Assembly (NCBI GenBank): GCA_018449715.1
Contig: JAAVVA010000001.1
Coordinates: 1,488,001 to 1,552,000, forward strand
DNA from: Acidobacteriaceae bacterium dw_441
GTDB taxonomy: Bacteria > Acidobacteriota > Terriglobia > Terriglobales > Acidobacteriaceae
DNA length: 64,000 nucleotides
Direction of reading: 5' to 3'
The notes beneath the pieces are model-generated. The model was not told where the DNA came from, made no database searches, and saw only the letters and a list, made by a program, of their open reading frames with translations. Positions 15,711 to 32,368 of the stretch are shown one piece after another (within the stretch, counting starts at the first letter, position 1; each line of letters begins with the position of its first letter). Both the position numbers and the translations under genes were made by a program.

Positions 15711-18182
15711 CTAGTTGTTGCCTCCCACGCGGAGCTTGAGGCCCGTGCGGAAGGTGAACGGAAGCGACGTGTAGCCGATGGGGCCGATGTGCTGCTGTGA
15801 AAGCAGATTCCCCAGATCGGCGAAGACGGTGACGTGGCGATTGACCACATAGGTTCCATAGGCGTCGAGTTTGGCAAAGCCGTGGTCGAGGTTGCGGTTG
15901 GGCAGCAGCAGCGTGTTGCCTCCGTCCTGATCGGAGAAGGAGAGGAAGGTCGAGTCGTCGGAGCGACTGGCGAAGGCTCCTTTGAACGCTGCTGAGAACT
16001 TCGTCGTGGTGTACTGGGCGGCGAAGAAGCCGGTCTGCGGAGGACGGCGGAAGGGGCGCTGTCCCACCAGAGCGTACGAAGAGCCGATGGGGACGCCAGG
16101 GAGGTTGGGATTCTCGACGGCGGTTCCGTTGGCGATGGCGTCCGACGAGAAGGACTGCTCGACCAGGGAGGCAAGGTAGGTGTAGCCGCCGCGTACCAGA
16201 ATGCTACGCGTGGGGGCGAACTGAAGCTCGCCTTCAAAGCCCTGCGCACGGTAGGCGAGGGTGTTCAGCAGAGCGCCGAAGAGCTGTGCGGTACTGGTGT
16301 CGATGCCGAAGACCTGTTTCAGCGTGCCGGAATCGACGAAGTCCATCTGGTGGCTGAACTGGTTGTGGAAGTATCCCGCCTTGAGGATGAGTTTCTCGGA
16401 GAGGATGTTCTGATCGACGCCAACGTCAAAGGTGCGGGAGCGCAGAGCCTGAAGAGGCTTGACGTTGTAGGCAGTGATGAGGTCGGTGGAACCGGCGTCA
16501 GAGAGTTCCTTATATAGAGACTGAAATTCGCTCGAGAGCGAAGGCTCCTGCACGCCGGTCGCGGCGTTGGCACGGAGCTTGGTTCCGTGAAGGAAGCCGG
16601 GGCCGGGACGCACGGGAACCCATGCGAGGCCGAAGCGCGGAGTTCCGGCAGTTCCGTAGAGGTTGTTGCGCTGGATGGCTCCCCCGAGAGAGTAGAAGAG
16701 CCGGTTCTTCACATCGCCCTGGAACTGGAGGGTGTACTGGAAGTTGGTCCGCTGGGTCTTATCGAAGGTGAAGAAGGCGGGATTGTTGGAAGAGCCGCGT
16801 TCGTCCTCGTAGCGAAAACCGAAGAGCCCGATGAAGTGCGGCGAGAAAGTGTAATCGGACTGGAAGTACAGCTCATCGCGGAGAGATGCAAGATCGTTGC
16901 CGGTGGGAAAGCTGGTTCCATTGAGGAAGGAGGCGCGGCCCGTGGCGGTGTATCCGTTGGCTCCGCGGATGGTGACGGTGTTGCCGTAGTAGTCCGGGAA
17001 GGGGCCGAAGGAGGAGGGCACCATCAGAAGCTCTCCGACGGGCTGGAAGAGGACAAGCTGCTCGCGCTTGCGGGCGATGCCGTAGCGGACGAGATTGTGC
17101 CAGTTATTGTGGCGATTCTCGATCGTCGCTCCGGAGTAGAGATCCTGGTCGGCCTGCTTGCCATCGGAGGAGACGAGGTAAAGCTCGTGCGCGCCGGGGA
17201 CACCGGTGGCCGAGACTCCGTTGCGGATGGTGAAGCGCAGCGAGGTGTTCGCCGTGAAGTTGAAGCCGAGGTTCGCCGCGCTGGTGGCCGCGTGGAAGCG
17301 GTCGAGCGGGAGCGAGTTCGAAGAGTCGAAGCGCGAGAAGGCTCCGTAGTAATCGAGACGGTTGTGCGCACCGCCGAGGGTGACCTCGTTGCGGTAGGTG
17401 TGGAAGTTTCCGGCGTCGCCCGAGTAGTTAAGGATGGCGCGCGGAGTGGCTCCGCGAGGAGTGGTCAGGTTCACGACCGAGGCGAGGGCGTCGGAGCCGT
17501 AAAGGACGCTGTTGGGACCGCGGTAGGCCTCGAAGCCGTCGAGGGCGGTAGAGGAGACGGTGCCGAAGTCGAAGCGTCCTCCAACGTCTTCGGCAGTGAT
17601 GCCGTCGACCATGACCTTGTTGGCGTCGGAGTTTCCGCCGCGCACAAAGAGCGAGGTGACTCCACCGTACTGGCCGGTCTGAACGGCGGCGATGCCGGGA
17701 GACTGGCGGAGGTCGTCGGTGATGCCAACGCGCGCCTGGAGGACGCTGAACGGAACGAGGCTGATGGCGGAGCTGGCCTGCTGGATCGGCGTGGGGATGC
17801 CGGTCGCGGTGACGGTCATCTGCGCGGTGACGGAGGCGATCTCAAGTGTGACGTTGCGTGTGACGAGGTCGGTGCGTCCACCGTAGAAGGCCTGGCCAAT
17901 GCCGGAGGTGAAGGTGGGCGCAGTGGTCAGGAGAAGGAAGCGACCGGTGGCGGTGCTGCGGATCTCAAAGGAGCCGTCTGAGCCGCTGCGAGCGCTGCCG
18001 ACGATCTGCTTGTTCTGGATGAGTTGAACGGCTGCTCCGGGGACGGCTGCTCCGAGAGGATCGGTGACAGTGCCGCGGACGATGACGGCTTCGGAGGAGA
18101 CGGCGGCGAAGGAAAGGATTGCGGCGGCAAAAAAGCGGCGAAGGACGTGCGAGGCCGCAGAGGGACGCTCGGGTGCGTGCAT
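15711..18182 (-). CDS. TonB-dependent outer-membrane receptor, probable cobalamin transporter (BtuB-like)
   Basis: The 823-residue protein has a signal peptide (residues 1 to about 32), a carboxypeptidase-regulatory fold (VIVRGTVTDPLGAAVPGAAVQL) typical of acidobacterial receptors, a plug domain (DDLRQSPGIAAVQTGQYGGVTSLFVRGGNSDANKVMVDGI ... YRGPNSVLYGSDALASVVNLTT) and a beta barrel ending TFRTGLKLRVGGNN. The upstream cobalamin riboswitch is the main reason to propose corrinoid import. The frame is open to 18263, but that part is the riboswitch. The ATG at 18182, nine bases after GAGGAG, is the true start. A terminator follows. Confidence 0.88.
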   Translation of the reverse strand: MHAPERPSAASHVLRRFFAAAILSFAAVSSEAVIVRGTVTDPLGAAVPGAAVQLIQNKQIVGSARSGSDGSFEIRSTATGRFLLLTTAPTFTSGIGQAFYGGRTDLVTRNVTLEIASVTAQMTVTATGIPTPIQQASSAISLVPFSVLQARVGITDDLRQSPGIAAVQTGQYGGVTSLFVRGGNSDANKVMVDGITAEDVGGRFDFGTVSSTALDGFEAYRGPNSVLYGSDALASVVNLTTPRGATPRAILNYSGDAGNFHTYRNEVTLGGAHNRLDYYGAFSRFDSSNSLPLDRFHAATSAANLGFNFTANTSLRFTIRNGVSATGVPGAHELYLVSSDGKQADQDLYSGATIENRHNNWHNLVRYGIARKREQLVLFQPVGELLMVPSSFGPFPDYYGNTVTIRGANGYTATGRASFLNGTSFPTGNDLASLRDELYFQSDYTFSPHFIGLFGFRYEDERGSSNNPAFFTFDKTQRTNFQYTLQFQGDVKNRLFYSLGGAIQRNNLYGTAGTPRFGLAWVPVRPGPGFLHGTKLRANAATGVQEPSLSSEFQSLYKELSDAGSTDLITAYNVKPLQALRSRTFDVGVDQNILSEKLILKAGYFHNQFSHQMDFVDSGTLKQVFGIDTSTAQLFGALLNTLAYRAQGFEGELQFAPTRSILVRGGYTYLASLVEQSFSSDAIANGTAVENPNLPGVPIGSSYALVGQRPFRRPPQTGFFAAQYTTTKFSAAFKGAFASRSDDSTFLSFSDQDGGNTLLLPNRNLDHGFAKLDAYGTYVVNRHVTVFADLGNLLSQQHIGPIGYTSLPFTFRTGLKLRVGGNN

Positions 18183-18191
18183 GAAGATCAA

Positions 18192-18215
18192 CTCCTCGTT
18201 CCCCCCTCGGGAACG
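18192..18215 (-). promoter_or_regulatory. Hairpin next to the ribosome binding site of the BtuB-like gene
   Basis: CGTTCCC and GGGAACG (18197-18215) form a hairpin whose 3' side abuts GAGGAG (18192-18197), the likely ribosome binding site. It is a plausible expression platform for translational control by the riboswitch. Confidence 0.5.
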
Positions 18216-18229
18216 TGGCTGTTGTGCGA

Positions 18230-18403
18230 CAACGGAACCGGTCTCCTGACTGTCGCGTTTCATGCCTGCCGGATGTGGCGGCTCCCTTCCCGATTGGTCA
18301 GTGGGGGCGGCCGGGCGGCGTTCGCCTCGCTAGCGCGAAGGCGCGCGAGTCACAGTTGCGGGGCAGTGGCGGGGTTTCACCGCGCTTCCCGAACATTCCG
18401 TTG
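18230..18403 (-). ncRNA. Cobalamin riboswitch
   Basis: Read on the minus strand, the conserved parts come in the right order: GGGAAGCGCGGTGAAA, then CCACTGCCCCGCAACTGTGA, then CCCACTGACC with GGGAAGG, and the B12 box AGTCAGGAGACC. The outer stem CAACGGAA/TTCCGTTG (18396-18403 with 18230-18237) is a perfect 8 bp helix closing the element. It controls the BtuB-like receptor gene, which starts 47 bp further on. High cobalamin should turn the gene off. Between the riboswitch and the CobN-like gene (18404-18572) I see only a hairpin. Confidence 0.95.
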
Positions 18404-18524
18404 CGGTACAAGTATGTGTCGGCGGCTCGGGAGGCTCTTGAAGGCTCGAGCCGCAGGTTAATGCTGTGTTTCAAGTTTGAGGCATGGGAGGGGCGAAGTC
18501 AAAAGACGGTCGACGAAGTTCTCA

Positions 18525-18562
18525 GGCCATACCAAATCCCTCGATCCGTTCTCGGTATGGCC
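18525..18562 (-). terminator. Hairpin after the CobN-like gene
   Basis: GGCCATACC (18525-18533) and GGTATGGCC (18554-18562) can pair. It lies just past the stop of the minus-strand CobN-like gene. There is no T-run on that strand, so termination by it is only possible. Confidence 0.4.
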
Positions 18563-18572
18563 CGGTTTTATC

Positions 18573-21500
18573 TCAACGCGGCATCAACTGGATGAAGGTA
18601 TGGCGTATCCAACGCCGGCGCGCAAATCCAAGCCCAATGCCTGCAAGAATCGACGCGCACCAGAAGATAATCAATGATGTCATGTGCTCTCTGGCCAGTT
18701 GACGATAGGAACGCGCCATCTCCGCAACTCGGACATAGGTTACCTTGTATCCGTTGAGATAGTTGGGAAGAGCTGTCTTCGACACCTTTGGCTGAGAGGC
18801 CGGAACCGCAGGTGAGGGTTTTGGCTTCGAGGTCGCTTTCTTGTAGACCTGATCGAACTGCTTTATCTCTTTTGTGCTGAGATGAGATCGCGGCAACTCC
18901 TTCGCATCCGAAACCACCTGCCGGGCAAGCTTCTGGTTGCCGCAGATGTTCGCGGAGCACGCTACCCCGTGCGTAGCAACATTCTTCACAAACTCCTTCA
19001 GGAGCTGCTGCTTTTCTTCCGGAGCAAACTTATAGACGCCCTGACGATCCACCTCAAGAAGACGCCCGAGAAGCGCCTGGCGAGCAGCAGGGTTCGATTG
19101 CTCCATAAATTTCTGGACCCCGAGTTTGTACTCGTCCGCGACATAGACGTCGTACATCTTCTTCCAGACCTCAGGCGATACCGTCTCGGGCGCAGTCGCC
19201 TGCCAGCCATAAAGGTTTTCGGTAGCCTTCATCATCTCGCGTGCTCCCGAGTAGCCTTCTTTCTGCATCTCTTCGATCCACTTCGGATTCCAGTTGCGAG
19301 CATTCAGCTCGGTTGCGATGAACTCCTTCGCACCCTGAACCTTCTCCTGCCCAGGGTGACGGAGATCATTGAACATCAACTCTGGCTTAGCTCCTGTTGT
19401 GGCGGAGGCAATTCGCAGTCCCCCCATGTACTGGTAAACATCATCGTTGTCCACAGAGCCATAGAGGTTAGAAGAACGACTGTGAAGGATCGTCTGATTG
19501 CCCTTGAGCTGTTCCTGTAAAAGTTTGGGAACTGTGGCGCCCCAGGTCTTCTCCGAGTAGACATAGTTCATCTTGCTCAAATAAAGCTCCGCCATCGTCT
19601 CTGGCTCATCCTTGTCCCGGCTCTGTTCTACCATGTTGCTCAAACCGAAGCCATAGGAACCTGGAGCGGAAGCGAAAACCCTGGCTCCCGCCAGTTCTTT
19701 TGCCTGATCCGCAGGCACACCATTTGCAAGTAATGCCTGCTCGACCGCTTTCGTCTGTCGACTGATGGGATTGTCGCCAGCTGAGGCCGCGAGACGAGAG
19801 GCTCGATCCAGCATGACGATCTTCTCCGCTAAACCATCGCGATAGAGTCCGCTTGCGGTAAAGACGACGTTGACGCGTGGGTGCCCAAGTTGCGCGTCAG
19901 GAATGAGACTCATCCGATCGACCACTCCGCGACCATTCCACTCAGGCTGAACGCCCATCAGGTACATGGCCTCTGCCTCCATCGCGCCCTGATTCCTGCC
20001 GGTCTCCCCCTGCCAGAGGATCATGGAGATGTGATCCGGAAGGGTGCCGTGTGCTTTCTTGTAAGCGGCAAGAAGCTTGTCGCCCATCTTCTTGCCAAGC
20101 TCCCATGCTGCGCGCGTTGGAAGTTGCGCCGGATCTCCCTGATGCAGATCTCTTCCGCTGGGCAAGGCATCTGGCACTCCAAGCGGATCTCCCACCGGAC
20201 CACTCGGCAGATACTCCGCCTGAAGCACCTTCGGAAGTTCCGCTAGTTCTCTCGCAGGAGAGAGGTGAAGATCCTGAAGCCACTTCTGAGCATCCTTGAT
20301 TGCCTGAAGGCTCTTATTCCGTATCCTGGGATCAAGTGACTGCGGCACGTCGGGCATCTGTCCGGCGAAGATTTCGTCGTTCCACGATTGCAGATAGGAC
20401 TCAACCTGCTTCTTCTCATCGGGCATAAAACTATTCCCGAGAAACGAAAGCAGTCCAGCCCTCTGCCGATCTTCCGAAGGCATCTGGCCCAGGGTTGGCA
20501 ACCCAAGGGGGATCGGGGCTTCTTCTACCGAATCCAGAAATGCGATCGCTCTTTCCATGCAGTCGTCTGGCTTCGAAGGATCGAGTGAGAGTTGTTTGGT
20601 GAGCCCCAGGTGATCCAGCTCTGCCAGTGCCTTTGTTTCGTACTCCTGTGCAAGCGCGGGAGCCGTCTCGTGCGTCTGCTCCCACTGACCGAGCAGATCG
20701 TTCAGGGGAAGGAAACGGGGCTCAAGACCAGCGCGAACAAGGATGGGAGTGAGGTGAGAGATCAGGACAGCGGCAGAGCGACGTCTTGCCTGAAGCGCTT
20801 CACCGCCACCATCCATAATGTAGTAGTTCACATTCGGAAGATCGCCGAGCAAGACCTCAGAGGTATCACTTCCCGACTGTCCAGCATTCTTTCCCGGCAA
20901 CCATTCCAGGGTTCCGTGACGCCCCATGTGAATCACCGCATCCGCTCCAAAGGCATGCCTGTACCAAAGATAGGAAGCTACATAGCCGTGATGGGGAGGC
21001 AGAGTCGAGCTATGCTGCACGGCCGTGTATTCGGCGAAAGAAGATCGCAACAGCTGCGGGCCAAGAAAAACATTTCCTAGATGGATGCCAGGGATCACGA
21101 AGAACTTCTCTCCCTTCGCGTTCTTCCATGTCATCAGCGTTGCGTCTTCGGGCTTTCCCCAACGCTCATTGATCGCATCCTGAAACTGCTTCGGAGTCTC
21201 GCGGAACCACTTCTCGTACTCTCGCACAGGCAACAAAGTAGCTCCCCCCTTGCGGACCATCGCATCCAATTCGCCCGGAGCCCAGTTCTCTACATTGCGT
21301 CCTACTTTGTCCAGCTGAGCAAGGATCTCTTCAGAAGCTGGAATGGTCTCTCCAGTCTTATACCCAGCATCGTGCAGCGTCTGCAGCACAGCTCGAATGC
21401 TGGGAGCGAGATTAAGATAACTGGCTCCGAGGTTTCCTTTGCCCGGAGGGTTGTTGTAATAAAGGACCGCGAGCTTCTTCTCTGCATTCGACTTCTCAGC

Positions 21501-22562
21501 GAGAGTGACCCAGCGTTTCGCTCTAAGCGCTGCAGCATGAACTCGCTCTTCAATGGGTGCGTTCACGGTCAAACCTGTCTTCGAATCATTCTCGGTCGTC
21601 GACACAAGAATCGGCTCTGTTGCGCCATTCATCTCAGGCATGCTGAGCATCGTCGCAATTCGATCCGGTGTAACTCCCTTGTCCGCCTTCTCCCACTCTT
21701 TACGACTCTGACGAGTCGTCATCAAATCCATTACATGGATATTCTGTTTTTCGAGATAGACGCGATCTTCGGGCTTTGCGAGAGCAAGCGTGAACATCAT
21801 CATCACCCGTACCGGATCCGTTGAGGGCTGATTGAAGACAGGAACAAGGGAGCTATGCGGCGTTCCATAGACGCCAGCCGCAGCTAGCCCTTGCCTCTCA
21901 AGCTCGCGCAACAGCGCATCGATGACCGAGGTGTCCTGATCCTTCAGGTAGGTGTAGAAGAAGTTGACGGTAACAAGCGCCCCCTGATGAGGCTTCGCCT
22001 GCCTGTACCACTTCAAATACTCGTCAAGATTTGAGAATGGATGAGGAGCATCCGGGTGATAGACCCCCATCCTGGCAACCTGCTCGAGTGGAGGAACGGG
22101 CGTGTCCCTGGGGCCGCCACCAGCGACATAGAGAAGAGTAAGCATCCCTAACAAATTCCGCTCGCCTCCGTTATTCCAGTAAGGCATCAGCTTTGCGGTC
22201 AGGGGCATCGCTGGTGCGATCCCCCAACCGCGATCGAGAAACTCCGGAACATCGGTGGACACCTTCATTCCACGCTTCACCGCATCGAGCCCAGCATCCT
22301 TCATCCGATCCAGGAATTCGGAAGATGGATGCTGGAAGAAGACAGCTCTTGCCTGCGAAAGTCGCTGCGGAGTCACCTCCTCCTCACGGAGAACCTCACA
22401 GCTACAGGCCTCCTTCCCGAACTTCTCCTCAAACGCTTTCAATGCAATTGGAAGCACCTGGGAGTTGTGGACGACCACCATTACATTCGGCTTCGAGGCC
22501 TGCCCAAAAGCAGCTACCGTGAGCAAGACATGCAGGATAAGCGTGTTGAACCGTAGTCTCAT
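18573..22562 (-). CDS. Exported, membrane-anchored CobN-like chelatase
   Basis: The 1329-residue protein is homologous to the large subunit of cobalt and magnesium chelatases (CobN/BchH). The family segments YYNNPPGKGNLGASYLN (about 368-384) and HMGRHGTLEWLPGKNAGQSG (about 545-564) are clear. Unlike cytoplasmic CobN it begins with a signal peptide (residues 1-21, ending FGQA) and ends with one membrane helix (SLIIFWCASILAGIGLGF) and a basic tail, so the catalytic part should face the periplasm. No CobS/CobT or ChlI/ChlD ATPase is nearby. It starts 8 bp after the TonB receptor gene. CobN relatives called HmuS occur in haem-uptake loci of Bacteroidetes, where iron removal from haem has been proposed. 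A similar dechelation or metal-exchange job is my inference; cobalt insertion is the alternative. Confidence 0.85.
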   Translation of the reverse strand: MRLRFNTLILHVLLTVAAFGQASKPNVMVVVHNSQVLPIALKAFEEKFGKEACSCEVLREEEVTPQRLSQARAVFFQHPSSEFLDRMKDAGLDAVKRGMKVSTDVPEFLDRGWGIAPAMPLTAKLMPYWNNGGERNLLGMLTLLYVAGGGPRDTPVPPLEQVARMGVYHPDAPHPFSNLDEYLKWYRQAKPHQGALVTVNFFYTYLKDQDTSVIDALLRELERQGLAAAGVYGTPHSSLVPVFNQPSTDPVRVMMMFTLALAKPEDRVYLEKQNIHVMDLMTTRQSRKEWEKADKGVTPDRIATMLSMPEMNGATEPILVSTTENDSKTGLTVNAPIEERVHAAALRAKRWVTLAEKSNAEKKLAVLYYNNPPGKGNLGASYLNLAPSIRAVLQTLHDAGYKTGETIPASEEILAQLDKVGRNVENWAPGELDAMVRKGGATLLPVREYEKWFRETPKQFQDAINERWGKPEDATLMTWKNAKGEKFFVIPGIHLGNVFLGPQLLRSSFAEYTAVQHSSTLPPHHGYVASYLWYRHAFGADAVIHMGRHGTLEWLPGKNAGQSGSDTSEVLLGDLPNVNYYIMDGGGEALQARRRSAAVLISHLTPILVRAGLEPRFLPLNDLLGQWEQTHETAPALAQEYETKALAELDHLGLTKQLSLDPSKPDDCMERAIAFLDSVEEAPIPLGLPTLGQMPSEDRQRAGLLSFLGNSFMPDEKKQVESYLQSWNDEIFAGQMPDVPQSLDPRIRNKSLQAIKDAQKWLQDLHLSPARELAELPKVLQAEYLPSGPVGDPLGVPDALPSGRDLHQGDPAQLPTRAAWELGKKMGDKLLAAYKKAHGTLPDHISMILWQGETGRNQGAMEAEAMYLMGVQPEWNGRGVVDRMSLIPDAQLGHPRVNVVFTASGLYRDGLAEKIVMLDRASRLAASAGDNPISRQTKAVEQALLANGVPADQAKELAGARVFASAPGSYGFGLSNMVEQSRDKDEPETMAELYLSKMNYVYSEKTWGATVPKLLQEQLKGNQTILHSRSSNLYGSVDNDDVYQYMGGLRIASATTGAKPELMFNDLRHPGQEKVQGAKEFIATELNARNWNPKWIEEMQKEGYSGAREMMKATENLYGWQATAPETVSPEVWKKMYDVYVADEYKLGVQKFMEQSNPAARQALLGRLLEVDRQGVYKFAPEEKQQLLKEFVKNVATHGVACSANICGNQKLARQVVSDAKELPRSHLSTKEIKQFDQVYKKATSKPKPSPAVPASQPKVSKTALPNYLNGYKVTYVRVAEMARSYRQLAREHMTSLIIFWCASILAGIGLGFARRRWIRHTFIQLMPR

Positions 22563-22570
22563 CGTTCACC

Positions 22571-24865
22571 TTAGAAGTGCACTCTCGTGCCGATAAACAG
22601 TGATCGACCGAGCGAGTTGTAATAGAGGAAGTACTTTCTGTCCAGCATGTTGTCCGCGTTGGCGACGATAGAGATATGGCGCGTCGCCTCGTAGGTCACG
22701 GTGCCATCCATCTCGAAGAAGAGATCGTAACTTCCGGGAACGTTGTGGACCGTGTCCGTATTGGTGTCGGTCGAGTACACAGGACTTACATAGCGTCCAG
22801 TCCAGTTGAAGATGAAATGCTTCGGTGTCGCGGTCGCCTGATAACTCAACATGTGCGCCGGAACATAAGGAAGGCTCTTCCCTACTGTCGTCGGCAGACT
22901 TGGATTACTCAGGATGATCGAGTTGGTATAGGCGTACCCTTGTTGCAGCTGCAGCCAGTTGAAGACTCGTTCCTTCGTCGAGAACTCCGTCCCCCAGGTA
23001 CGACTCATTCCTGCATTCGTCAGGATCTTCGTTGCTCCGGTCGGATCGGTCAGGTCCGTTGTGCGATAGATCAGGTCTTTGACGCGGTTGGTGTAGCCTG
23101 TCGCCTCGATGGAATAGCGATTCGCAAATGTCTTGACGACGCCAGCCTCATACGCAGCAAGATGCTCAGGCCGCTCGTTAGGATTGGCAACATAGCGCGT
23201 GCTGGACAACACAAAGTTGTAGTAGAGTTCGTAGACCGATGGCCCACGGAATGCATTCCCAGCGCTTGCCCTGAGATGCCAGTCCTTTGGAAGTCTGTAG
23301 TTGACGGCGATCTTTCCGGTAAAGGCTTGCGCCGAACGATCCCCGTATGCAAGAGGCGTCGCTGTGGCAGAGGCACGGTTCCCTCCGTTATAGGTCCGCC
23401 AGTAGTCATACCTGCCTCCGGCCACGATATTCAGTCGATCCCAAAAACTACCCTGGTACTGTCCATACCCGGACTGGTCGATCGTTTTGCCAAAAGCATT
23501 CAACGTGACCGGCCCAATATTTGTTCGATCACGAAAGTTTGAAAGGCTGAAGGTATTCGTCGTTGCGCGGTCGCCTCGGGTCTCCGTACCAAAGAGAAAC
23601 GTCTGACCGTGAGCAGTGCGACTTACCAGAATATTTCCGTAGAGCGATTGTCCAAACTGAACGTTATATGTGCCCACTCCCCCCGCATAAGCGGCTGCCG
23701 CGCCAGCCTGTGTGTACCAGAGCGTTGGATTATTATTCAGTCCCGCAGTGACACGGATCATCCAGGCAGGAGTGACTTGCGCGTGGATCTGGCCATGATA
23801 GAAGTTAGTCGTTGAGCCAGAGGGCGTCCCAATAAAACTTGAAGGAGATACGCTCAGTTGACGGACCGTCCCCGAGTTATCAACAAAACGATAGCTTCCA
23901 CTATCAACCGTCGCGCCCTCCGAGGTCCTCAAGGCGCTGCGGTACGGTCCATAATCGTCCCCTCGTTGCATGTGCATGAACTGCAGGTATCCAAAGATCT
24001 TTGGGGAGAAGGTGTACTCTGCGCGAGCGCGAAATGCAGCGCTTTTGAACCACTCGGTTCCACGACGTCCAACCTGATACTGCACTCCACCACTGCTTGT
24101 TGGCAGCTGCGTTACGCCTGCAACAAAAGGAGCAGAGCCTCCCGCAAGCGCCGAACTGACATAGGTTCCCTGTGGAGAGTAGCCACCTGTCTTATAGCCG
24201 GTATATCCAATCGTTACTCCAAGCCGATCAAAGTAGCGATCCGTCAGATGCGCACTGTAGTTATCAGTTGCGCGACTTCCGTACTGATAGAAGAAGTCTC
24301 CATGCCTGCCGTCCGGTCTGCGGCTGATGAGATTAATGACTCCTCCCATCGCGTTTCCTCCATAGAGCGAGGAGAACGGGCCGCGCGCGATCTCGACACG
24401 CTCCAGATCCTGGGGCGAGAACATGCTCCAGTTCACGGAGCCATTAAACGAATTGTTGATCGGCTGATCGTCGAGCAGGATTAGAGTACGCACCTGTCCA
24501 CCACGTCCCGCAAAACCGCGCAGGCCAAGGCCAAAGTCATTGTCGGAAGCTCCGCGGGCCCTAAGACTGATGACACCAGGAATGCCTTCGATCGCCTTGT
24601 CGATCATACGAATGTCGCGCTGTTCGAGTTCTCGACGTGAAACAAGGGCACTGGACACAGGGGAACTCTCGATCTCAATTGGAGTACGAGTACCAGTAAC
24701 CGTAACCTCCGCCTTCACTGGGCTGATTCTGGTATCCGCTTCTGACTTCGTCTGCTGTTGTGCTGAAGCGGGGGCGTCCTGGGCATGAAGTGAGTTCGTA
24801 AGCGCAGAGGCAAAAACGACCGAGGCTAAAGAGAGGCTCAGGTTGAGAAATTTTCTAACTAACAT
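22571..24865 (-). CDS. TonB-dependent outer-membrane receptor paired with the CobN-like protein
   Basis: The 764-residue protein has a signal peptide (MLVRKFLNLSLSLASVVFASALTNSLHAQ), a TonB-box-like VTVTGTRT, a plug domain (RMIDKAIEGIPGVISLRARGASDNDFGLGLRGFAGRGGQVRTLILLDDQPINNSF ... GPFSSLYGGNAMGGVINLISRRP) and a barrel ending SLFIGTRVHF. No carboxypeptidase-regulatory N-terminus is present, unlike the BtuB-like receptor. The ligand is not readable. Tight coupling to the CobN-like gene suggests a metal chelate such as haem or another tetrapyrrole. No riboswitch precedes it. Its control probably lies further upstream, before the small His/Cys membrane-protein gene. Confidence 0.9.
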   Translation of the reverse strand: MLVRKFLNLSLSLASVVFASALTNSLHAQDAPASAQQQTKSEADTRISPVKAEVTVTGTRTPIEIESSPVSSALVSRRELEQRDIRMIDKAIEGIPGVISLRARGASDNDFGLGLRGFAGRGGQVRTLILLDDQPINNSFNGSVNWSMFSPQDLERVEIARGPFSSLYGGNAMGGVINLISRRPDGRHGDFFYQYGSRATDNYSAHLTDRYFDRLGVTIGYTGYKTGGYSPQGTYVSSALAGGSAPFVAGVTQLPTSSGGVQYQVGRRGTEWFKSAAFRARAEYTFSPKIFGYLQFMHMQRGDDYGPYRSALRTSEGATVDSGSYRFVDNSGTVRQLSVSPSSFIGTPSGSTTNFYHGQIHAQVTPAWMIRVTAGLNNNPTLWYTQAGAAAAYAGGVGTYNVQFGQSLYGNILVSRTAHGQTFLFGTETRGDRATTNTFSLSNFRDRTNIGPVTLNAFGKTIDQSGYGQYQGSFWDRLNIVAGGRYDYWRTYNGGNRASATATPLAYGDRSAQAFTGKIAVNYRLPKDWHLRASAGNAFRGPSVYELYYNFVLSSTRYVANPNERPEHLAAYEAGVVKTFANRYSIEATGYTNRVKDLIYRTTDLTDPTGATKILTNAGMSRTWGTEFSTKERVFNWLQLQQGYAYTNSIILSNPSLPTTVGKSLPYVPAHMLSYQATATPKHFIFNWTGRYVSPVYSTDTNTDTVHNVPGSYDLFFEMDGTVTYEATRHISIVANADNMLDRKYFLYYNSLGRSLFIGTRVHF

Positions 24866-25027
24866 GTACGTGTCCTGTGTCTTGTGCTGGTTGCAAAGAA
24901 AAGCATCGACCTGTCGGTTCGCTTAAAGAGAGAAACCACGAGAAGATGAGGCACAAGGATCGAAGACAGCAAAACTTCGCTACACCGATCCAGTGCGACT
25001 TAGAAGAGAAGACTTAGAGATGAAGAG

Positions 25028-25309
25028 TTAGAGCGCCGGTGGAGGACGCACGAAAGGAAGCCAGATAATCTCTCGCTGCTGTACTGAAAACTCCCAGATA
25101 CGGATAAATTCTCTCCGTATTCCTGCAGAAAACAGGCTAACAACGACGACACAAAAGGCAAGGAGATGGCTCAGATGCAGACAGGCACCACAATGCTCAT
25201 TTTGCGATTGGCTAGATATATGACGGTGGAGGTGAGCAGCGCCCGCAATGCTGATCAGCAACACACACAAGACGAGCACCATCACAAGGAAAGCGCGACG
25301 GCTCATCAT
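25028..25309 (-). CDS. Small membrane protein with His/Cys motif, DUF2946-like
   Basis: The product (about 93 residues from the ATG at 25309) has one hydrophobic segment MVLVLCVLLISIAGAAHL, then HLHRHISSQSQNEHCGACLHLSHLL, a second hydrophobic stretch and a C-terminus ending PPPAL. The HLHRH...HCGAC arrangement and Pro-rich end resemble DUF2946-type proteins found beside TonB receptors and metal genes. A metal-binding role is inferred from the residues. The frame is open to 25393, but the presumed promoter and inverted repeat lie inside that part; ATGs at 25333 or 25345 are alternatives. Confidence 0.55.
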   Translation of the reverse strand: MMSRRAFLVMVLVLCVLLISIAGAAHLHRHISSQSQNEHCGACLHLSHLLAFCVVVVSLFSAGIRREFIRIWEFSVQQREIIWLPFVRPPPAL

Positions 25310-25342
25310 CTCGTGTTGCGCTGCGACTGTCATATGATTTCT

Positions 25343-25374
25343 CATTCTATCCTTAAATGAGAATAGAATGTCAA
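25343..25374 (-). promoter_or_regulatory. Inverted repeat and -35-like box before the receptor/CobN-like genes
   Basis: CATTCTAT (25343-25350) and ATAGAATG (25363-25370) form perfect 8 bp arms around 12 bases. On the minus strand TTGACA (25369-25374) overlaps the outer arm, and AT-rich DNA follows. This looks like an operator-promoter for the DUF2946-like, receptor and CobN-like genes. A Fur-family protein is encoded 124 bp upstream, but the site is not a textbook Fur box. Confidence 0.45.
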
Positions 25375-25497
25375 TAACAAGAGGAAACAGCAAGGCGTGA
25401 GTCAGATCATTCTGTGATCAAACCCATTCCTGATATTTTTGTTCGATGAAAGATTGCGAGAGTGCAGCGAGCCCATGAAAGGAGCAGCTACATAAAA

Positions 25498-25890
25498 CTA
25501 AGCGTGAGCGTTTGCTCCTGAATTGCAGGTAGCGCAGTTCCCATAAAGAAAGAACTCGTGCCCGGTTGTACTGAATCCCCGCGGCAACTTAGGCTTGGCC
25601 TGCGCTATACACCCCTTGAGATCAAAGACCTTTCCACACGTATTGCAGTGAAAGTGATGATGGTGCTCTTTCCCTGCAAGCTCATAACGAGCTGGCTGCC
25701 CTGGAATCTCAACAGAGATGAGCCACCCTTCCTCGAGCAAGGCCTGGATATTACGGTAGATCGTCGCAATCCCGATCGATGGATGAAATTCAAGGGCGCA
25801 CGCCAGCGCTTCCTCGGGAGAGAGGGGACGCCCCGCCTCGGCAAATGCCTCCCGAATAGCGGTCTTCTGCTTGGTATTTCTCTTATCCAT
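25498..25890 (-). CDS. Fur-family metalloregulator
   Basis: A 130-residue Fur/Zur/PerR-type repressor. The winged helix spans about residues 1-75 (KQKTAIREAFAEAGRPLSPEEALACALEF ... SIGIATIYRNIQALLEEGWL). The dimerisation domain has the His-rich metal site EHHHHFHCNTCGKVFDL and a second CxxC in YGNCATC, giving the four-cysteine structural zinc site. The segment between them (LPRGFSTTGHEFFLYG) is short. The sensed metal is not certain: neighbours allow iron or zinc. A GTG at 25893 directly precedes the ATG at 25890. It probably regulates the flanking receptor, chelatase and ABC genes. Confidence 0.9.
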   Translation of the reverse strand: MDKRNTKQKTAIREAFAEAGRPLSPEEALACALEFHPSIGIATIYRNIQALLEEGWLISVEIPGQPARYELAGKEHHHHFHCNTCGKVFDLKGCIAQAKPKLPRGFSTTGHEFFLYGNCATCNSGANAHA

Positions 25891-26023
25891 CACTAATAAG
25901 ATTAGCTTCTCAGGATTAGAGATTCAAGTACTCCCCCAAAAGTCCTCAAGCTGGCTGGATTTTGGGGATAACACTCGATAACGGCCATAAGAACCGCTCC
26001 CCATCCCTTTCTCTCGAGAATAG

Positions 26024-27280
26024 TTACGAACCAGAGTTGAGTCCATCGGCTAATGAGTTTCGGTAGGCGCGCCATGCAGGTACTCCTCCTAGAATGACCG
26101 CCCCTAGAACTGTTGCCAGCGCATAGATCTCAACGCGTACAGAAAGACCTACCAGGGAAATTGGCAGCCCAAGGCGGCTTTCTATGATGTTGCGCATAAG
26201 GAAGAGGAGGATATAGGTGGCGGCAATTCCAAACACCGTTCCCGCAATTGCAATCAGCATAGCTTCTGTGAGAATCAGCAGGATGATCTGCCGCATGCGA
26301 AGCCCCACAACACGCAGGACTGCGATCTCTTTGCGCCGCTCATTCAGAGATGTATAGAGCGCAATCAACATGGAAAGCAGACCTGTCACAAGCACTGCAA
26401 TCGAGACGATGGAGAGTCCCTGATCCGCATAATCAAGAATGCTCCAGAGTTCCTGCAGGGTGAAGGCTGGGATGATGGCTGTCAACGGTTCGGGCTTGTA
26501 TGAATTAATTTCGCGTTGAAGGCTCAGCGTGCTGATGCGAGACTTGGTTCCCAGAAGAAACGAGGTGATTGCTGTCACTTTCAGCTTGCGCGGATCCAGC
26601 TTTGGAAGAGATTCACCGATGGCTGGAGGCGTGCCATCTTCCCAGCCATAGTGCATCGCCTCATCGCCCAGAAGAGTCATGTAGAGAGCTCGGTCAACAG
26701 GCGTAGCAGTAGGAGCAAGAATACCGACCACCGTAAAAGGCACGTTGGTGTGGTTCAGGATGGAATGCTCTTCGATACCGTGAGCCAGCGTGATCTGTTG
26801 CCCCAGATGGTAGTTAAGCGAAGAGGCCACCTGGGCTCCAAGAGCAATCTCAAACAGAGAAGATGGCTCGCGCCCCTGAGCGAAACCAAGGTGATGATTA
26901 CTCCTGTACTGGTAATACCTGTAAAAGTTCTCATCCGTGGCAACGACACGATAGCCCCGGTGGGAATCGCCCATCGAGATAGGAATGGTCCACGCGACTG
27001 CGGGATGATGCGCAAAGTATTGATAAGTATCCGACGAGATTTCGTTGGAAGCATTGCCCAGATGGAAGACCGTCGATAAAAGCAACGGAAGATCTCCTCC
27101 GCGAGCACCCACAATAAGATCGGTATGAGAGAGTGTGCCTGCAAAACCTTCCTGCGCCGCATAGCGCAAACGATCGACTCCGGTCAGCAACGTAACGGAA
27201 AGCGCTATCGAAAAGATTGTCAGCGTGGTCGTAAGAGCTCGACTACGCAGCGACTTCCATGCGAGAAGGATCAGCATCAT
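26024..27280 (-). CDS. ABC transporter permease, FtsX/MacB type
   Basis: A 418-residue permease with one N-terminal helix, a long periplasmic domain (about residues 40-270) and three C-terminal helices with the FtsX pattern (LSIVSIAVLVTGLLSMLIALYTSLNERRKEIAVLRVVGLRMRQIILLILTEAMLIAIAGTVFGIAATYILLFLM). This is the MacB/LolCDE type, which moves lipids, peptides or other periplasmic molecules using cytoplasmic ATP rather than importing metals. The ATG at 27280 overlaps the stop of the ATPase gene (ATGA). With the ATPase and the DUF3299 gene it forms one transcription unit. Confidence 0.88.
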   Translation of the reverse strand: MMLILLAWKSLRSRALTTTLTIFSIALSVTLLTGVDRLRYAAQEGFAGTLSHTDLIVGARGGDLPLLLSTVFHLGNASNEISSDTYQYFAHHPAVAWTIPISMGDSHRGYRVVATDENFYRYYQYRSNHHLGFAQGREPSSLFEIALGAQVASSLNYHLGQQITLAHGIEEHSILNHTNVPFTVVGILAPTATPVDRALYMTLLGDEAMHYGWEDGTPPAIGESLPKLDPRKLKVTAITSFLLGTKSRISTLSLQREINSYKPEPLTAIIPAFTLQELWSILDYADQGLSIVSIAVLVTGLLSMLIALYTSLNERRKEIAVLRVVGLRMRQIILLILTEAMLIAIAGTVFGIAATYILLFLMRNIIESRLGLPISLVGLSVRVEIYALATVLGAVILGGVPAWRAYRNSLADGLNSGS

Positions 27281-27984
27281 GCCTTTTCCTCCTGCACGCA
27301 ACGGTTGATCGACGGCAGAGAGAGCGACTCCTGAAAGTGGCGCACTAGGGTAAGATCGTGCGAAACAAAGAGCAACGTGCTTTGCGTTTCAGCAACCATC
27401 TCCGTCAAAAGGCTTAGAAAGTCGTCACGCCGCTCATGGTCAAGAGAAGAAGTCGGTTCATCCGCGATGACCAGAGGCGGAGAACCGATGATCGCACGCG
27501 CGATGGCCACACGCTGCTGCTGCCCCATTGAAAGCTGGCGCACGGAGGTGTTCAACTTACTGCGAATGCCCAGGCGGTCGGCGATGCGATGTGCTTCTTC
27601 GCTTAGCGTCGCTGCGCGAATGCGTCGTCCCCGTTCTTCATGCAGCATGCACGAAAGCATGATGTTCTCTCCCACACTCAGGTAAGGGATCAGGTTGAAG
27701 GATTGAAAGATATAACCGATATCGCGACCACGCATCGTATCTCGCGCAGAGGCAGACAGCTTCCGCAAGTCCTGCCCCAACACGCGAACCTCGCCACCTT
27801 GTGGAACAAGAACGCCCGAGATCAGCGAGAGCAACGTCGTCTTTCCACTGCCCGAAGGACCGTGCAGAAACACGCTACGCCCGGACGAAATCTCCAGGGA
27901 GTCTATCTTCAGAACAGGTTCTCCCTGCCTGTAGTAAAAAGAGACATCCTTCAACAGGATGGCTGGCATCACGTTATTGCTCAT
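27277..27984 (-). CDS. ABC transporter ATP-binding protein, LolD/MacB type
   Basis: The ATPase partner of the FtsX-type permease downstream, about 235 residues. Walker A is [15 protein letters not shown], the Q-loop [20 protein letters not shown], the signature [16 protein letters not shown], Walker [14 protein letters not shown] and the H-loop FVSHDLTLV. The Q-loop sequence FQSFNLIP is typical of LolD/MacB ATPases. The frame is open to 28050, but the ATG at 27984 overlaps the end of the DUF3299 gene and fits family length; an ATG at 27969 is also possible. Confidence 0.9.
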
Positions 27985-28396
27985 AGGGCTGTACGACATC
28001 GGCATCCATGTTGTAGGAGATATCTCCGTAGGGACTTTGCACGGTGGCAATGTGAAGCGTTCCCATCACCAGGATTGGGTCTGTGAAGGACATCTTTGCC
28101 TTCTGGTTACGAGTCAGCTTCACATAAATCATCTGGTTAGGAGGAGGGGGAGGAACGTGGATGCAGGCACCTGCAAATGGTACAAGAATGAACTCCGTCA
28201 CCTGGTCCGCATCGTCTTCAAGCGGAACCATAAATCCCGGAACAGCAACCCTTTTTCCATTCAGCGCACGTGCCGGAGAGCTCACCTGCGAGGAAGTCAA
28301 CGTCTTCAATGTCGACCACGTTACAGTAGCTGCAGCATCCTCTTTGTTGCCGCCCAACAACGCGAAGATAAATAGAAAAAGGGCCAAAGAGTTCAT
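27974..28396 (-). CDS. DUF3299 exported protein of a metal-linked ABC operon
   Basis: The 140-residue product has a signal-like N-terminus (MNSLALFLFIFALLGG) and a DUF3299 core: NGKRVAVPGFMVPLEDDADQVTEFILVPFAGACIHVPPPPPNQMIYVKL. The family function is unknown. In some gammaproteobacteria similar DUF3299 plus MacB-like ABC sets belong to zinc-responsive operons, which is recalled knowledge rather than something shown here. The ATG at 28396 is preferred to a TTG at 28459 because it begins the signal segment and has GGAAGG upstream. It overlaps the ATPase gene. Confidence 0.82.
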   Translation of the reverse strand: MNSLALFLFIFALLGGNKEDAAATVTWSTLKTLTSSQVSSPARALNGKRVAVPGFMVPLEDDADQVTEFILVPFAGACIHVPPPPPNQMIYVKLTRNQKAKMSFTDPILVMGTLHIATVQSPYGDISYNMDADVVQPYEQ

Positions 28397-28494
28397 CGCA
28401 GAAACAACCTTCCAACGGGTAGAAGCTTTCTTAAGGTCTTCGGCCTGACAGGTCGCCAACGCACAGGCGAGCTAGGCTCACCATCCGAGAAGAA

Positions 28495-29907
28495 CTACTG
28501 AGGCTTCCCTCCTTCAGCAGCCTTACGCTGGGAAGGAGGAATCCACGAAGGCCAGCGCGAGCTGCGTTGAGAGCCGAAAGGTCGCTCGTCAAACACTGTC
28601 CAGTGACCGGCAAGCGCCGGATCAGAGCTGTGCTTGGGAGCATCCCATTGATCGAACTCGATTGCGTTGAGGTCATACACAATCTTGCCGCCCTTGATCG
28701 TCAGTTCGCACACGAGCTTGGTATGACCGACATCCTTGGCGCCGAACATGTCGAAAAAGCCGAAGGTGCCATGTTCTTCAGAAAAGACTGCGACGTCCGC
28801 GATAGCACCTACAGAAAGATTGCCCAGTTGATCCTGCTTGATTTCGTGCGCGGGGTTCGCTGTCATTTGGGCAAAGACCTCAGGAATCGTCTCTCCCAGC
28901 AGGATCATCTTATCGGCAACATTCAGGATGTCTTTCATACTGCCATTCATCGAGGTGATATGAAGATCCGTTGAGATGGAGTCAGGGTGATATCCCGAAG
29001 CCATAATCGGAGCCGCGACAGAGAAAGCGAAGGAACCGCCTCCGTGGCCGATATCGCAGTAGACACCACGCTTTCTCATATCGATAAGCGCTTTCGAAGG
29101 ACCACCAGTATTAGCGTCCTGCTCTCCACGGTTTCCAGAGAAGCAATGCGTATAGATATCTCCAGGACGCAAATACTTCGTGACCAGATCATAGAGCGGA
29201 CGCTCGATCCGGCGTGATCCATAGTCGATCATTACAGGAATGTGGGCGATGTTACCGGCGACAACTGCCTGCTCATAAGGCTTCCACTCTGGCCCCGTAA
29301 AGTGAGCGCTCTTGATGCCGACGACAACGCCTGGATACTTCAGCGCAAACTCTCCGGTCGCCTTGCCATCCATATCGTCCAGATTATTTTCGTAGTTACC
29401 GCCTCGCATTCCAGAGCCAACAATATTGAGCTCAACAAGAACACGGGTAATCGAACGATCCACTACCTTATCTTTGAAATCAGGAAAGTTTTTCCATCCA
29501 GAAGAGCCCGCATCGACAATCGTTGTAACACCGTTACGAAGCGTAAAGCCATCAGGATAAACAGAGTTATCACCGGCATAGGAGCCGCGTTCTCCCGTGC
29601 CCGCATAGACATGGGTGTGCAGGTCGATCAGCCCTGGAGTTACCCAAAACCCGTGCACATCGATCGTCTTCAGAGCGTCCTTAGTATCGAGATGCTCCCC
29701 TACGGCTGCAATTCGACCATCTTTAATCGCAACATCTTCGACACCGTCGATATTATTTTTCGCATCAACAATATGCCCTCCCTGCAACAACAAGTCATAA
29801 GGCAAGGGATTCGGTGGAAGAACAGGTCCGCTTCTCCTCTGCGCCATTCCAATGGAGCAGCAAAGGACAAGCAATACGTAAGGCAGGCTTTTTAAACTAT
29901 TCATCAT
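28495..29907 (-). CDS. Exported metal-dependent amidohydrolase/deacetylase
   Basis: A binuclear amidohydrolase of the dihydroorotase/D-aminoacylase type, 470 residues, with signal peptide MMNSLKSLPYVLLVLCCSIGMAQ. Metal ligands are visible: GLIDLHTHVY, the likely carbamylated lysine in VVGIKSAHF, IYTHCFSG, a histidine in CDIGHGGG and the aspartate in SISTDLH. Relatives remove acyl groups from amino acids or sugars. The substrate here is unknown. It precedes the DUF3299 gene in the same direction (98 bp to the chosen start), so it may head that operon. The ATG at 29907 follows AGGGA. Confidence 0.88.
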   Translation of the reverse strand: MMNSLKSLPYVLLVLCCSIGMAQRRSGPVLPPNPLPYDLLLQGGHIVDAKNNIDGVEDVAIKDGRIAAVGEHLDTKDALKTIDVHGFWVTPGLIDLHTHVYAGTGERGSYAGDNSVYPDGFTLRNGVTTIVDAGSSGWKNFPDFKDKVVDRSITRVLVELNIVGSGMRGGNYENNLDDMDGKATGEFALKYPGVVVGIKSAHFTGPEWKPYEQAVVAGNIAHIPVMIDYGSRRIERPLYDLVTKYLRPGDIYTHCFSGNRGEQDANTGGPSKALIDMRKRGVYCDIGHGGGSFAFSVAAPIMASGYHPDSISTDLHITSMNGSMKDILNVADKMILLGETIPEVFAQMTANPAHEIKQDQLGNLSVGAIADVAVFSEEHGTFGFFDMFGAKDVGHTKLVCELTIKGGKIVYDLNAIEFDQWDAPKHSSDPALAGHWTVFDERPFGSQRSSRWPSWIPPSQRKAAEGGKPQ

Positions 29908-30006
29908 CGTCACATCCCTGGCATGGAGAACACATTCTGCTTCAGCAACGCTAGTCAACGCGGCTTGCGCCTGGATTCGTCCCAGGCTCACAGCTCATTT
30001 CGTTAA

Positions 30007-30036
30007 TGTATATGGTTTACCATTACTAATAGTCAA
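30007..30036 (-). promoter_or_regulatory. Promoter of the amidohydrolase gene
   Basis: On the minus strand TTGACT (30031-30036) and TATACA (30007-30012) with an 18 bp spacer. The spacer contains ATGGTAAACCAT (30012-30023), with arms ATGG/CCAT, a possible operator core. The leader to the ATG at 29907 is about 95 nt. Confidence 0.5.
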
Positions 30037-30059
30037 GGCCCTTGGAATTCCAAGGGCCT
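30036..30059 (-). terminator. Hairpin after the flavodoxin gene
   Basis: AGGCCCTTGGAA and its exact complement form a 24-base palindrome 46 bp past the flavodoxin stop. No long T-run follows on the minus strand, so its strength as a terminator is uncertain. It touches the -35 box of the next gene. Confidence 0.55.
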
Positions 30060-30105
30060 ATCTCTTCTTCCACGAAGAATGGATTGAGGAGCAACAGTTC
30101 GAGAA

Positions 30106-30618
30106 TTAACTCTCCAGCTGGTATAGAACTTCCTGGGCTTTTAGCTGCGCGACCCATGAAGTAATCCGCTCGTCGGTTTCAGACGACTGATTATCTACAT
30201 CCAGTGCGAGTCCTACAAACTTCTCATCGCGCACAGCGAGAGAGCTGAAGAAATCGTAGCCGGTGGTCGGCGTAGCGCCTACCACCGAGGCACCCTGTTC
30301 TGCGACCTCGTCGTAAAGCAATCCCATCGCATCGACGAAGGTATCAGCATAAGTGATCTGGTCTCCCAGGCCGAACAAAGCGACTTTCTTCCCGGAGAGG
30401 CTTGCTTCCTTGAGAACGCTTAGCCGACTATCCCAGTCGGGCTGAAGATCCCCGTAGCCGCAGGTCGATGTCCCCAAAATCAGGAGGTCACAATCCTCGA
30501 AGTCCGAGCTGTTGGCTGATGATATTTCAATCAGCTTGCCGTCGAACTCTGATGCGATCTGAGTGGCAATATCGCGCGTGTTGCCATTGTCTGTACCGTA
30601 GATAATTGTTACTTTCAT
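30106..30618 (-). CDS. Flavodoxin
   Basis: A small FMN-binding electron carrier, 170 residues, that usually replaces ferredoxin when iron is short. The phosphate loop is IIYGTDNGNTRDIA (about 5-18), and the isoalloxazine loops are GTSTCGYGDLQPDW and LGDQITYADTFVDAMG. The 20-residue insert in the last strand (TGYDFFSSLAVRDEKFVGLALD) marks the long-chain type, as in IsiB and FldA. The ATG at 30618 follows AAGGGA. The upstream region contains the motif shared with the siderophore-receptor promoter, which fits iron control. Confidence 0.95.
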   Translation of the reverse strand: MKVTIIYGTDNGNTRDIATQIASEFDGKLIEISSANSSDFEDCDLLILGTSTCGYGDLQPDWDSRLSVLKEASLSGKKVALFGLGDQITYADTFVDAMGLLYDEVAEQGASVVGATPTTGYDFFSSLAVRDEKFVGLALDVDNQSSETDERITSWVAQLKAQEVLYQLES

Positions 30619-30993
30619 CTCTTGTCCCTTCACGAACAGGCGTGAGATCTCGTCGTATCGCGATTTTCCAATTGAATAACGCAGGGAGACTCGCAACGAT
30701 TACTGTTTTCAGAGCTTCACTCAGCCAATTCGAAGAGACCTATCCACGAATCGAGGTGGGATAGTAACGCAACAAATTCCCGTTTTGTGCGAACACATAC
30801 AGCCCGAAAGTTCACCAGGAAAAGTTGCGAATAGTAACATCGCCAGCCTTCGGTTCTCGATCTCCGAACTCCGATACCGCTTCGCCAAAAGACAAGTCTC
30901 GGGGTCCGTCTGAATCAGTTCAAATGAAGTTCATCCGATACATCAAAACTCTCTTCCATCATTTGGAAGTGAGCCGAAGATTTCACGCACATC

Positions 30994-31026
30994 CACAATA
31001 TACGACCAATATAGTCGCCTTTTGTG
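30994..31026 (-). promoter_or_regulatory. Rrf2/IscR-like site before flavodoxin
   Basis: The plus strand has GACC-AATAT-AGTC at 31004-31016, followed by CGCCTTTTGTG (31017-31026 and one more base). Read on the minus strand the core is GACT-ATATT-GGTC, close to the IscR type-1 core GACT-RWWWY-AGTC. Almost the same sequence occurs at 35846-35868 before the siderophore receptor. The rest of 30619-31100 holds no gene I can support; AT-rich stretches around 31020-31050 could contain the promoter. Confidence 0.5.
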
Positions 31027-31100
31027 TTTTTTTGTCACAAATATTTTCCAACCGAAGACCTTTTGGCTTTTTCCCTTCCCCAGAGGCGGCCATTTTAGGG

Positions 31101-31559: not shown

Positions 31560-31612
31560 GATCTATACACCTTCCCGCATGCAAAGAAAATCGCCTGTGC
31601 TTGTGGGCGACA

Positions 31613-32293: not shown

Positions 32294-32368
32294 CGTGCTA
32301 CCTCAAATAAAATTGCGACTACAGGATCAAAGCCTGTTGCTTGTCCTCAAACGCAGTTTTGTGAAACA

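Follow-up and report, generated by a model that had tools for sequence, protein, structure and literature searches.

What does a CobN homologue do when it begins like an exported protein, ends in a membrane helix and is encoded beside a TonB-dependent receptor? The question is raised by a locus in a stretch of 64,000 nucleotides, here called the window, from Acidobacteriaceae bacterium dw_441 (contig JAAVVA010000001.1, positions 1,488,001 to 1,552,000). On its minus strand, a receptor gene with Plug and beta-barrel domains (22571..24865) is followed by a gene for a CobN-like protein of 1,329 residues (18573..22562), and only 8 bp (GGTGAACG) lie between the receptor gene and the CobN-like ATG. 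An earlier note on this DNA had placed the reaction in the periplasm, outside cobalamin synthesis, as removal or exchange of the metal of an imported tetrapyrrole, with HmuS from the haem loci of Bacteroidetes as its precedent. Our answer is that the locus extends the known exported CobN-like (BtuS/HmuS) kind with a distinct variant, and we tentatively propose that this variant moves the metal of a corrin-like ligand rather than that of haem.

An exported CobN relative and its receptor

The CobN-like open reading frame matches PF02514 from profile position 3 to 1,088 of 1,090 (928 bits) and carries the signatures HMGRHGTLEW and DNDDVYQ. Its N terminus, MRLRFNTLILHVLLTVAAFGQA, resembles a signal peptide, and its C-terminal helix, SLIIFWCASILAGIGLGFA, followed by ARRRWIRH, resembles a stop-transfer segment, both as judged only by eye and from a 19-residue hydropathy mean. 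The distribution of charge suggests that the body lies outside and the tail inside. The full-length domain, the 8-bp gap and these terminal signals together confirm what the earlier note had observed of the pair, and import by the receptor and a periplasmic location would follow from this anatomy.

The genome has another candidate for cobalamin synthesis. A second PF02514 gene, on contig C7, scores 1,115 bits against TIGR02257 (cut-off 822), versus 546 bits for the window protein. It adjoins a ChlID-type ATPase gene (TIGR02442, under its cut-off), and around it are cobalamin riboswitches, a CobB gene (over its cut-off) and CobD-like, BtuF-like and BtuC/BtuD-like genes, all under their cut-offs. 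Among the window neighbours scanned (15711–32293) no ChlI/ChlD- or CobS/CobT-type gene was found, in agreement with the earlier note, the rest of the genome not having been searched for such ATPases. By these scores the window gene is not the genome's biosynthetic cobaltochelatase.

A phylogeny against CobN, BchH and HmuS had been set beforehand as the refuting test, and it places the window protein with the exported, HmuS-type proteins and not with true CobN. In a 32-row tree, 22 exported proteins split from ten CobN/BchH rows with support of 100/100, and the window protein groups with those of Bryobacterales F-183, G043 and G073 and with two Cupriavidus proteins. In a 48-row tree, the exported clade holds 38 rows and the window's subclade 21, each with a support of 100 in the SH-like approximate likelihood ratio test (SH-aLRT); HmuS falls within the exported clade and outside the subclade. 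AcidoG272, a near copy of AcidoG391, was omitted from this tree, G779 and Bryobacterales F-183 (identical receptor) were counted once, and neither G944, whose gene is truncated where its contig stops, nor G964, whose frames are split, was included. With its PF02514 domain, signal-like start, membrane anchor, position outside CobN/BchH and adjoining receptor gene, the protein is assigned on sequence to the exported BtuS-type group.

The topology signals follow the same division. All 38 exported rows of the 48-row set have a long C-terminal tail (132–214 residues), with a best tail hydropathy of at least 1.6 in 32 of them and of 1.13–1.57 in the other six; in the window's subclade the value is at least 1.63 throughout (21/21). 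The ten CobN/BchH rows have tails of 45–65 residues and hydropathies no higher than 0.29. The N-terminal measure is less clean: it is 1.38 for the window protein and 0.66 for G815a, a Sulfurimonas row lacks its start, and two cytoplasmic CobN rows reach 1.17 and 1.47 with upstream frame included.

Of the 21 subclade rows, 16 have a receptor gene as the immediate upstream neighbour in the same orientation, which argues that the pairing is not a matter of chance and that the coupling is real. The exceptions are G878, where the receptor gene is divergent, both Cupriavidus loci, G922 and G815b. The receptors of G786, G896 and G1031 match the reference receptors at only 23%–25%. One genome, G918, has two paralogous pairs, each closer in both members to pairs of other genomes (identities of 0.70/0.69 and 0.73/0.77 for receptor/CobN-like protein) than to one another (0.41 and 0.44). 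Over 14 pairs the receptor and CobN-like identities correlate with an r of 0.94, a value that shared descent alone could give.

The protein is rare near home. A full-length match is found in three of 150 genomes of the order, window genome included; 25 of the 150 pass an E-value of 1e-50, the other 22 being partial matches at 31%–32% with the GKHG of ordinary CobN. Wider samples gave at least four of 398 genomes of the family (E 1e-150), at least 32 of 399 of the class (E 1e-120) and at least eight of 396 of the phylum (E 1e-90), all of them lower bounds from overlapping samples that include the window genome and in which the best two candidates per genome were scored. A scan of named genomes yielded two loci only. 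In a Sulfurimonas metagenome-assembled genome (L034) and in G964 (L136), exported CobN-like or receptor genes lie in split frames, where sequencing error or decay is possible.

Active site, riboswitches and the likely ligand

If the protein is a relative of HmuS, does it share the haem chemistry of HmuS? Among PDB sequences its closest match is HmuS 9d26 (438 bits), ahead of CobN (375) and ChlH (362), and the alignment to solved structures covers its full length. We compared it with the ligands, motifs and insert listed for HmuS (PMC12583661). His-538 of HmuS is kept, in the context HMGRHG as against HFG(T/A)HG, so that Thr or Ala is replaced by Arg. Every subclade row (21 of 21) has this Arg before the catalytic His (GRHG), and the 27 others all lack it; the active-site loop likewise retains its Arg-His pair in 21 of 21. 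The remaining features are lost. The HmuS motif LSLDHxxEFMGG reads SVDNDDVYQYMGG in the window protein, with Asp for His-1209 and Gln for Glu-1212; HGR (HmuS 254–256, with the haem ligand His-254) is absent in the alignment; and the Met-79 column has Pro, in a weakly aligned region where one HmuS row also lacks Met. There is no methionine-rich domain IV insert, the window protein having 80 residues with three Met where three HmuS rows have 148 residues (8 Met), 253 residues (31 Met) and 337 residues (10 Met). The scan of neighbouring genes gave no HmuY, DUF2149 is missing from the genome, and the hmuYRSTUV set is reduced to the receptor and the CobN-like gene.

In the subclade the His-1209 column is Asp in 18 rows and Glu in three; it is Asp in seven of eight CobN rows and His in all three HmuS and both BchH rows. 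A further 22 CobN copies from the order also have Asp, the other eight of the 30 open reading frames scanned having given no pattern. Elsewhere among the exported rows it is His in G851, G887, AcidoG480 and Azospirillum and Asp in the remainder. We infer that corrin users can be told by an acidic residue in this column and porphyrin users by His, and this signature, together with the Arg beside the catalytic His, could sort the family into the two classes. To our knowledge no reaction has been demonstrated for a protein that bears the Asp signature.

Cobalamin riboswitches and cob genes near the relatives point the same way. In the window, a cobalamin riboswitch (18219..18415, minus strand; 58.6 bits, cut-off 31.5) lies between the CobN-like gene and a neighbour downstream of the riboswitch, the gene of a BtuB-like TonB receptor (15711..18182, minus strand) that shares 35% identity with the receptor encoded at the genome's B12 locus. 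The ATG at 18182 is a likelier start for this gene than the listed TTG/ATG at 18263, which sits inside the riboswitch. Control of the window pair by this element was considered and rejected, since it reads toward the downstream receptor. Among relatives, a cobalamin riboswitch is directly upstream of the exported CobN-like gene or operon in G815b (L141), in Trichlorobacter (two in tandem) and on a Comamonadaceae plasmid, and on an Azospirillum plasmid (L038) one comes after the CobN-like operon, in a locus closed at its distal end by nikR. In Cupriavidus (L036/L035) the order is exported cobN-like, cobW, ordinary cobN and ChlID-like; cobC-, cobS-, cobT- and cobD-like genes lie near the G918a gene on the opposite strand, and cbiB and adenosyltransferase genes lie near that of G896.

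In a set of 18 genomes that carry subclade-like members, 17 of which are represented in the tree (all but G964), 40 riboswitches exceed the cut-off. Three lie within 5 kb of the 20 loci where 0.13 would be expected (p ~3e-4), and two against 0.10 expected when the window genome is left out (p ~0.005). The 5-kb distance was a post hoc choice, and the scan scored no more than its 81 best candidates in each genome. DUF2149 occurs in two of the 18 genomes, both times beside the CobN-like gene. HmuS linked to HmuY is found in B. finegoldii, Prevotella and Aureibacter, and Hmu-like operons with a cobalamin riboswitch have been reported from Bacteroides (PMC10100974). Records from Bacteroides finegoldii (L042) and Prevotella nigrescens (L061) that are listed as plasmids carry Hmu-type operons of HmuY, receptor, CobN-like protein, one hypothetical protein, MotA and DUF2149. 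A Runella plasmid (L043) has its exported CobN-like gene inside a hyp (hydrogenase-maturation) cluster; with the nikR locus of Azospirillum, this hints at nickel-linked members.

The haem substrate suggested by the HmuS analogy has fared poorly: the His-538 equivalent is there, but most of the HmuS signature and most of the hmu set are missing, and residues and neighbours favour a corrinoid, cobalt or zinc over haem iron. It is the acidic column, together with the riboswitch and cob-gene neighbours of the relatives, that leads us to prefer a corrin-like ligand.

Zinc-side neighbours and the rival explanations

Upstream of the pair and on the same strand is a run of genes that would seem to concern zinc. 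Nearest is a small His/Cys membrane protein (25028..25393) with HLHRH and EHCGAC, noted by eye as a possible metal-binding motif; it matches no Pfam family at an E-value of 0.001. Its counterparts in G043 (L031:14464-14757) and G073 (L032:5394-5684) likewise precede the receptor gene, and G732 (L142) has a weaker one (32% match). Next come a Fur-family regulator (25498..25893), an FtsX/MacB-type permease (26024..27301), an ABC ATPase (27277..28050, start codon as listed mechanically) and a ZrgE-type DUF3299 protein (27974..28459), which matches the solved structure 4hsp, itself listed just as a hypothetical protein. At the head of the block is an amidohydrolase/deacetylase-type metallohydrolase (28495..29991), common to G073 and uncertain in its role. 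DUF3299 with an ABC ATPase and a permease is reported as the Zur-regulated zrg block of zinc starvation (PMC9817125). In G073 the Zrg-like block is downstream of the pair, with a CDF gene between and a permease copy that is 69% identical.

The regulator is likely, though not certain, to be Zur, since four of seven orthologues lie near zinc-type genes: two are beside ZIP genes, and two have a COG0523 gene next to them or no more than 1.4 kb away. These seven were chosen non-randomly from the 20 other genomes that match the regulator. In the window genome, a paralogue at 78% has ZIP and CDF genes no more than 6 kb away. A stretch of the window's own contig (C1:772000-791900, L097) was seen to hold two Zur-like paralogues of the regulator (78% and 54%) and, within 20 kb, ZIP, CDF and NicO-like genes and an ArsR-type regulator. 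An iron-starvation-like group (30106–35715) with a flavodoxin and a PiuC-type dioxygenase adjoins the zinc-like group; an Rrf2-like regulator (31101–31559) and a siderophore-type TonB receptor (33058–35715) were recognised in it by eye.

These observations can be joined as follows. Through the TonB receptor, a macrocycle that carries a metal, and that is more probably a corrin-like compound than haem, would enter the periplasm, where the CobN-like body would bind it and move its metal, by release or by exchange, in the absence of a cytoplasmic AAA+ partner. That no such partner lies nearby and no DUF2149 is found in the genome argues for a motor-free reaction, for example exchange or downhill release. 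In the window genome, the pair would probably serve zinc (perhaps cobalt-for-zinc) limitation. As a whole, an exported CobN relative of BtuS type, which would move the metal carried by a corrin-like ligand and in this genome would probably do so when zinc or cobalt is limiting, is the best explanation we can offer, one in which our confidence stays somewhat below even. The sequence itself gives the family, the topology signals, the pairing with a receptor, the distinction from the biosynthetic CobN, the lost HmuS signatures and the neighbours; the ligand class, the metal, the direction of the reaction and control by the neighbouring regulator are the parts that we infer.

A good deal weighs against it. 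On the chemical side, removal of the metal from nickel-corrins is reported to be very hard (PMC7693184). The closest PDB sequence is still HmuS (438 versus 375 bits for CobN). Removal from cobalt-corrins is likewise said to be very hard. No riboswitch lies upstream of the window pair, nor is there one in the stretches around the nine other innermost-clade loci. The zinc side meets its own objections: the best PDB match of the regulator is Fur (65.7 bits), ahead of the zinc regulator FurB (45.4); no NCBIfam Zur model matches it, the best scores being those of PerR and Fur and all below cut-off; and near three of the seven orthologues no metal gene was recognised, in a survey made without a Pfam scan. 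A Fur/Zur-family gene lies near the pair in one locus of 21, that of the window, none having been found in the sequence surveyed around the remaining 20 members of the subclade; the whole genomes of G043 and G073 give no match to the regulator at an E-value of 1e-20, and the Zrg-like block accompanies just two of 21 subclade pairs (window and G073). No shared Zur-box-like palindrome was found upstream of 12 regions, or of 21 regions that included the zinc genes of relatives. Iron also has its claim on the surroundings: the flavodoxin and PiuC-type genes are 5–7 kb from the window pair, and PepSY_TM genes, which are often linked to iron chelates, lie near the relatives at L131, L132, L135, L142, L058, L059 and L060.

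Three other functions for an exported protein can be set against this evidence. That the protein is an HmuS-like haem de-chelatase, taking haem from the receptor, removing its iron in the periplasm and leaving protoporphyrin, is unlikely, though a serious contender: HmuS 9d26 is the nearest PDB sequence and a member of the same exported clade, the essential His-538 is kept, and the PepSY_TM, flavodoxin and PiuC genes just mentioned would fit, but the changes of His-1209 to Asp and of Glu-1212 to Gln, the missing HGR, the Pro in the (weakly aligned) Met-79 column, the missing methionine-rich insert, the absence of HmuY from the neighbourhood scanned and that of DUF2149 from the whole genome all speak against it. 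We think it rather unlikely that the pair repairs corrinoids, inserting cobalt into salvaged metal-free corrinoids, or correcting the metal of wrongly metallated ones, in the periplasm before further uptake. The CobN-like acidic column and the riboswitch and cob-gene neighbours of relatives would suit such a role, and a metal-free cobalamin ligand from a Chromatium strain is reported to be converted to B12 by cobalt insertion (PMC7693184); yet CobN-type insertion uses an AAA+ ATPase, which one would not expect to function beyond the cytoplasm, and repair alone would not predict an adjoining zinc regulator.

A non-catalytic carrier, which would keep a macrocycle or chelate bound in the periplasm until an inner-membrane importer takes it over, appears decidedly unlikely. 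It would be in keeping with the lack of DUF2149 in the window genome and with the report that a btuS1 btuS2 double mutant of B. fragilis still made protoporphyrin from haem (PMC6460266), but the active-site Arg-His pair is kept in every subclade row and HmuS is reported to be catalytic (PMC12583661). Barely credible is a second biosynthetic B12 cobaltochelatase, which the full length of PF02514 and the adjoining cobalamin riboswitch and BtuB-like gene might bring to mind: the TIGR02257 scores of the window and C7 proteins led us to reject it, and the window protein is exported, groups apart from CobN and has no ATPase partner among the neighbours scanned.

Within the favoured explanation of a moved corrin metal, a more specific form is a long shot: that ATP-independent metal exchange on corrins in the periplasm is a zinc-sparing device, in which zinc shortage calls up dedicated corrinoid import and cobalt (or zinc) then fills zinc sites. 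If true, the exported family would be specialised by metal, with haem iron for HmuS, cobalt for the riboswitch members, nickel for the NikR/hyp loci and zinc for the Zur members, and a proton-driven MotA/DUF2149 motor would replace the cytoplasmic AAA+ motor in most other lineages sampled, the window subclade being mostly without it. Exported CobN relatives are commonly annotated as cobaltochelatases, for instance in plasmid records, and HmuS is the one member for which we found a published enzyme activity. With a receptor, one enzyme and no DUF2149 motor, the locus offers a compact test case. Should the metal of a corrin prove removable or swappable in the periplasm, this would help to explain the CobN-like genes in zinc regulons, a matter left open in reports on P. 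aeruginosa (PMC4542158, PMC8531726).

Comparison with known systems

The idea that such proteins extend beyond Bacteroidetes stands in part. The gene set of the window is indeed different, but the kind is not new, as shown by the BtuS proposal of 2003 and by a Zur-regulated pair in P. aeruginosa. We found no publication on this pair in Acidobacteria, or on BtuS with Zur, among the titles and abstract openings of one literature collection. In P. aeruginosa, the TonB receptor PA1922 and the CobN-like PA1923 are reported as Zur-regulated, loss of znuA raising their transcripts 147-fold and 122-fold, with a role left open (PMC4542158). Zur is reported to bind the PA1922-PA1923 promoter even without added metal, and the authors place this promoter in a group that they connect with cobalt (PMC8531726); zinc starvation is reported to be eased by cobalt (PMC13083405), and PA1925 is labelled DUF2149 (PMC9431628). 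Compared by description and not by the PA1923 sequence, PA1922-PA1925 resembles the window in its adjoining TonB receptor and CobN-like genes in a zinc-starvation setting. It differs in having an ExbD-type gene, which is missing among the window neighbours scanned, and DUF2149, which is missing from the genome. As for Zur, a probable Zur gene adjoins the window pair, with no box found and no such gene near the other 20 rows. No Pseudomonas appears among the 60 of 159 plasmid records listed.

The ZrgABCDE block of Vibrio and PA4063-PA4066 of P. aeruginosa share DUF3299, ABC ATPase and permease with the window; PA4066 we take to be the DUF3299 protein. Among the window neighbours scanned there is no ZrgA (DUF2796), which was not sought genome-wide. 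The MacB-type block PA4063-PA4066 is reported to export pyochelin-cobalt (PMC11481552). Neither system is described with a TonB receptor and CobN-like pair alongside in the literature consulted.

BtuS was proposed by Rodionov in 2003 as a third kind of CobN-related protein with a predicted role in metalloporphyrin salvage (as cited in PMC6460266), and exported BtuS1 and BtuS2 are reported from B. fragilis (PMC6460266). Within this family the window subclade is set apart by GRHG (21/21 rows, 0/27 others) and by the lack of DUF2149 in 16 of 18 genomes. The plasmid CobN/TonB cluster of Trichlorobacter (Geobacter) lovleyi, reported to be without CobS/CobT (PMC3403914), resembles the window in its receptor (31% identical over 97% of the query) and its CobN-like protein (32%), and differs in its two tandem cobalamin riboswitches upstream and its DUF2162, MotA and DUF2149 genes. 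HmuS of the Bacteroidota hmu operon has His-1209, HGR and the methionine-rich insert, which the window protein lacks, is accompanied by HmuY and DUF2149, of which the first is missing from the neighbours scanned and the second from the genome, and belongs to a separate subclade; what the two have in common is an exported, membrane-anchored CobN relative, a TonB receptor gene upstream and an equivalent of His-538.

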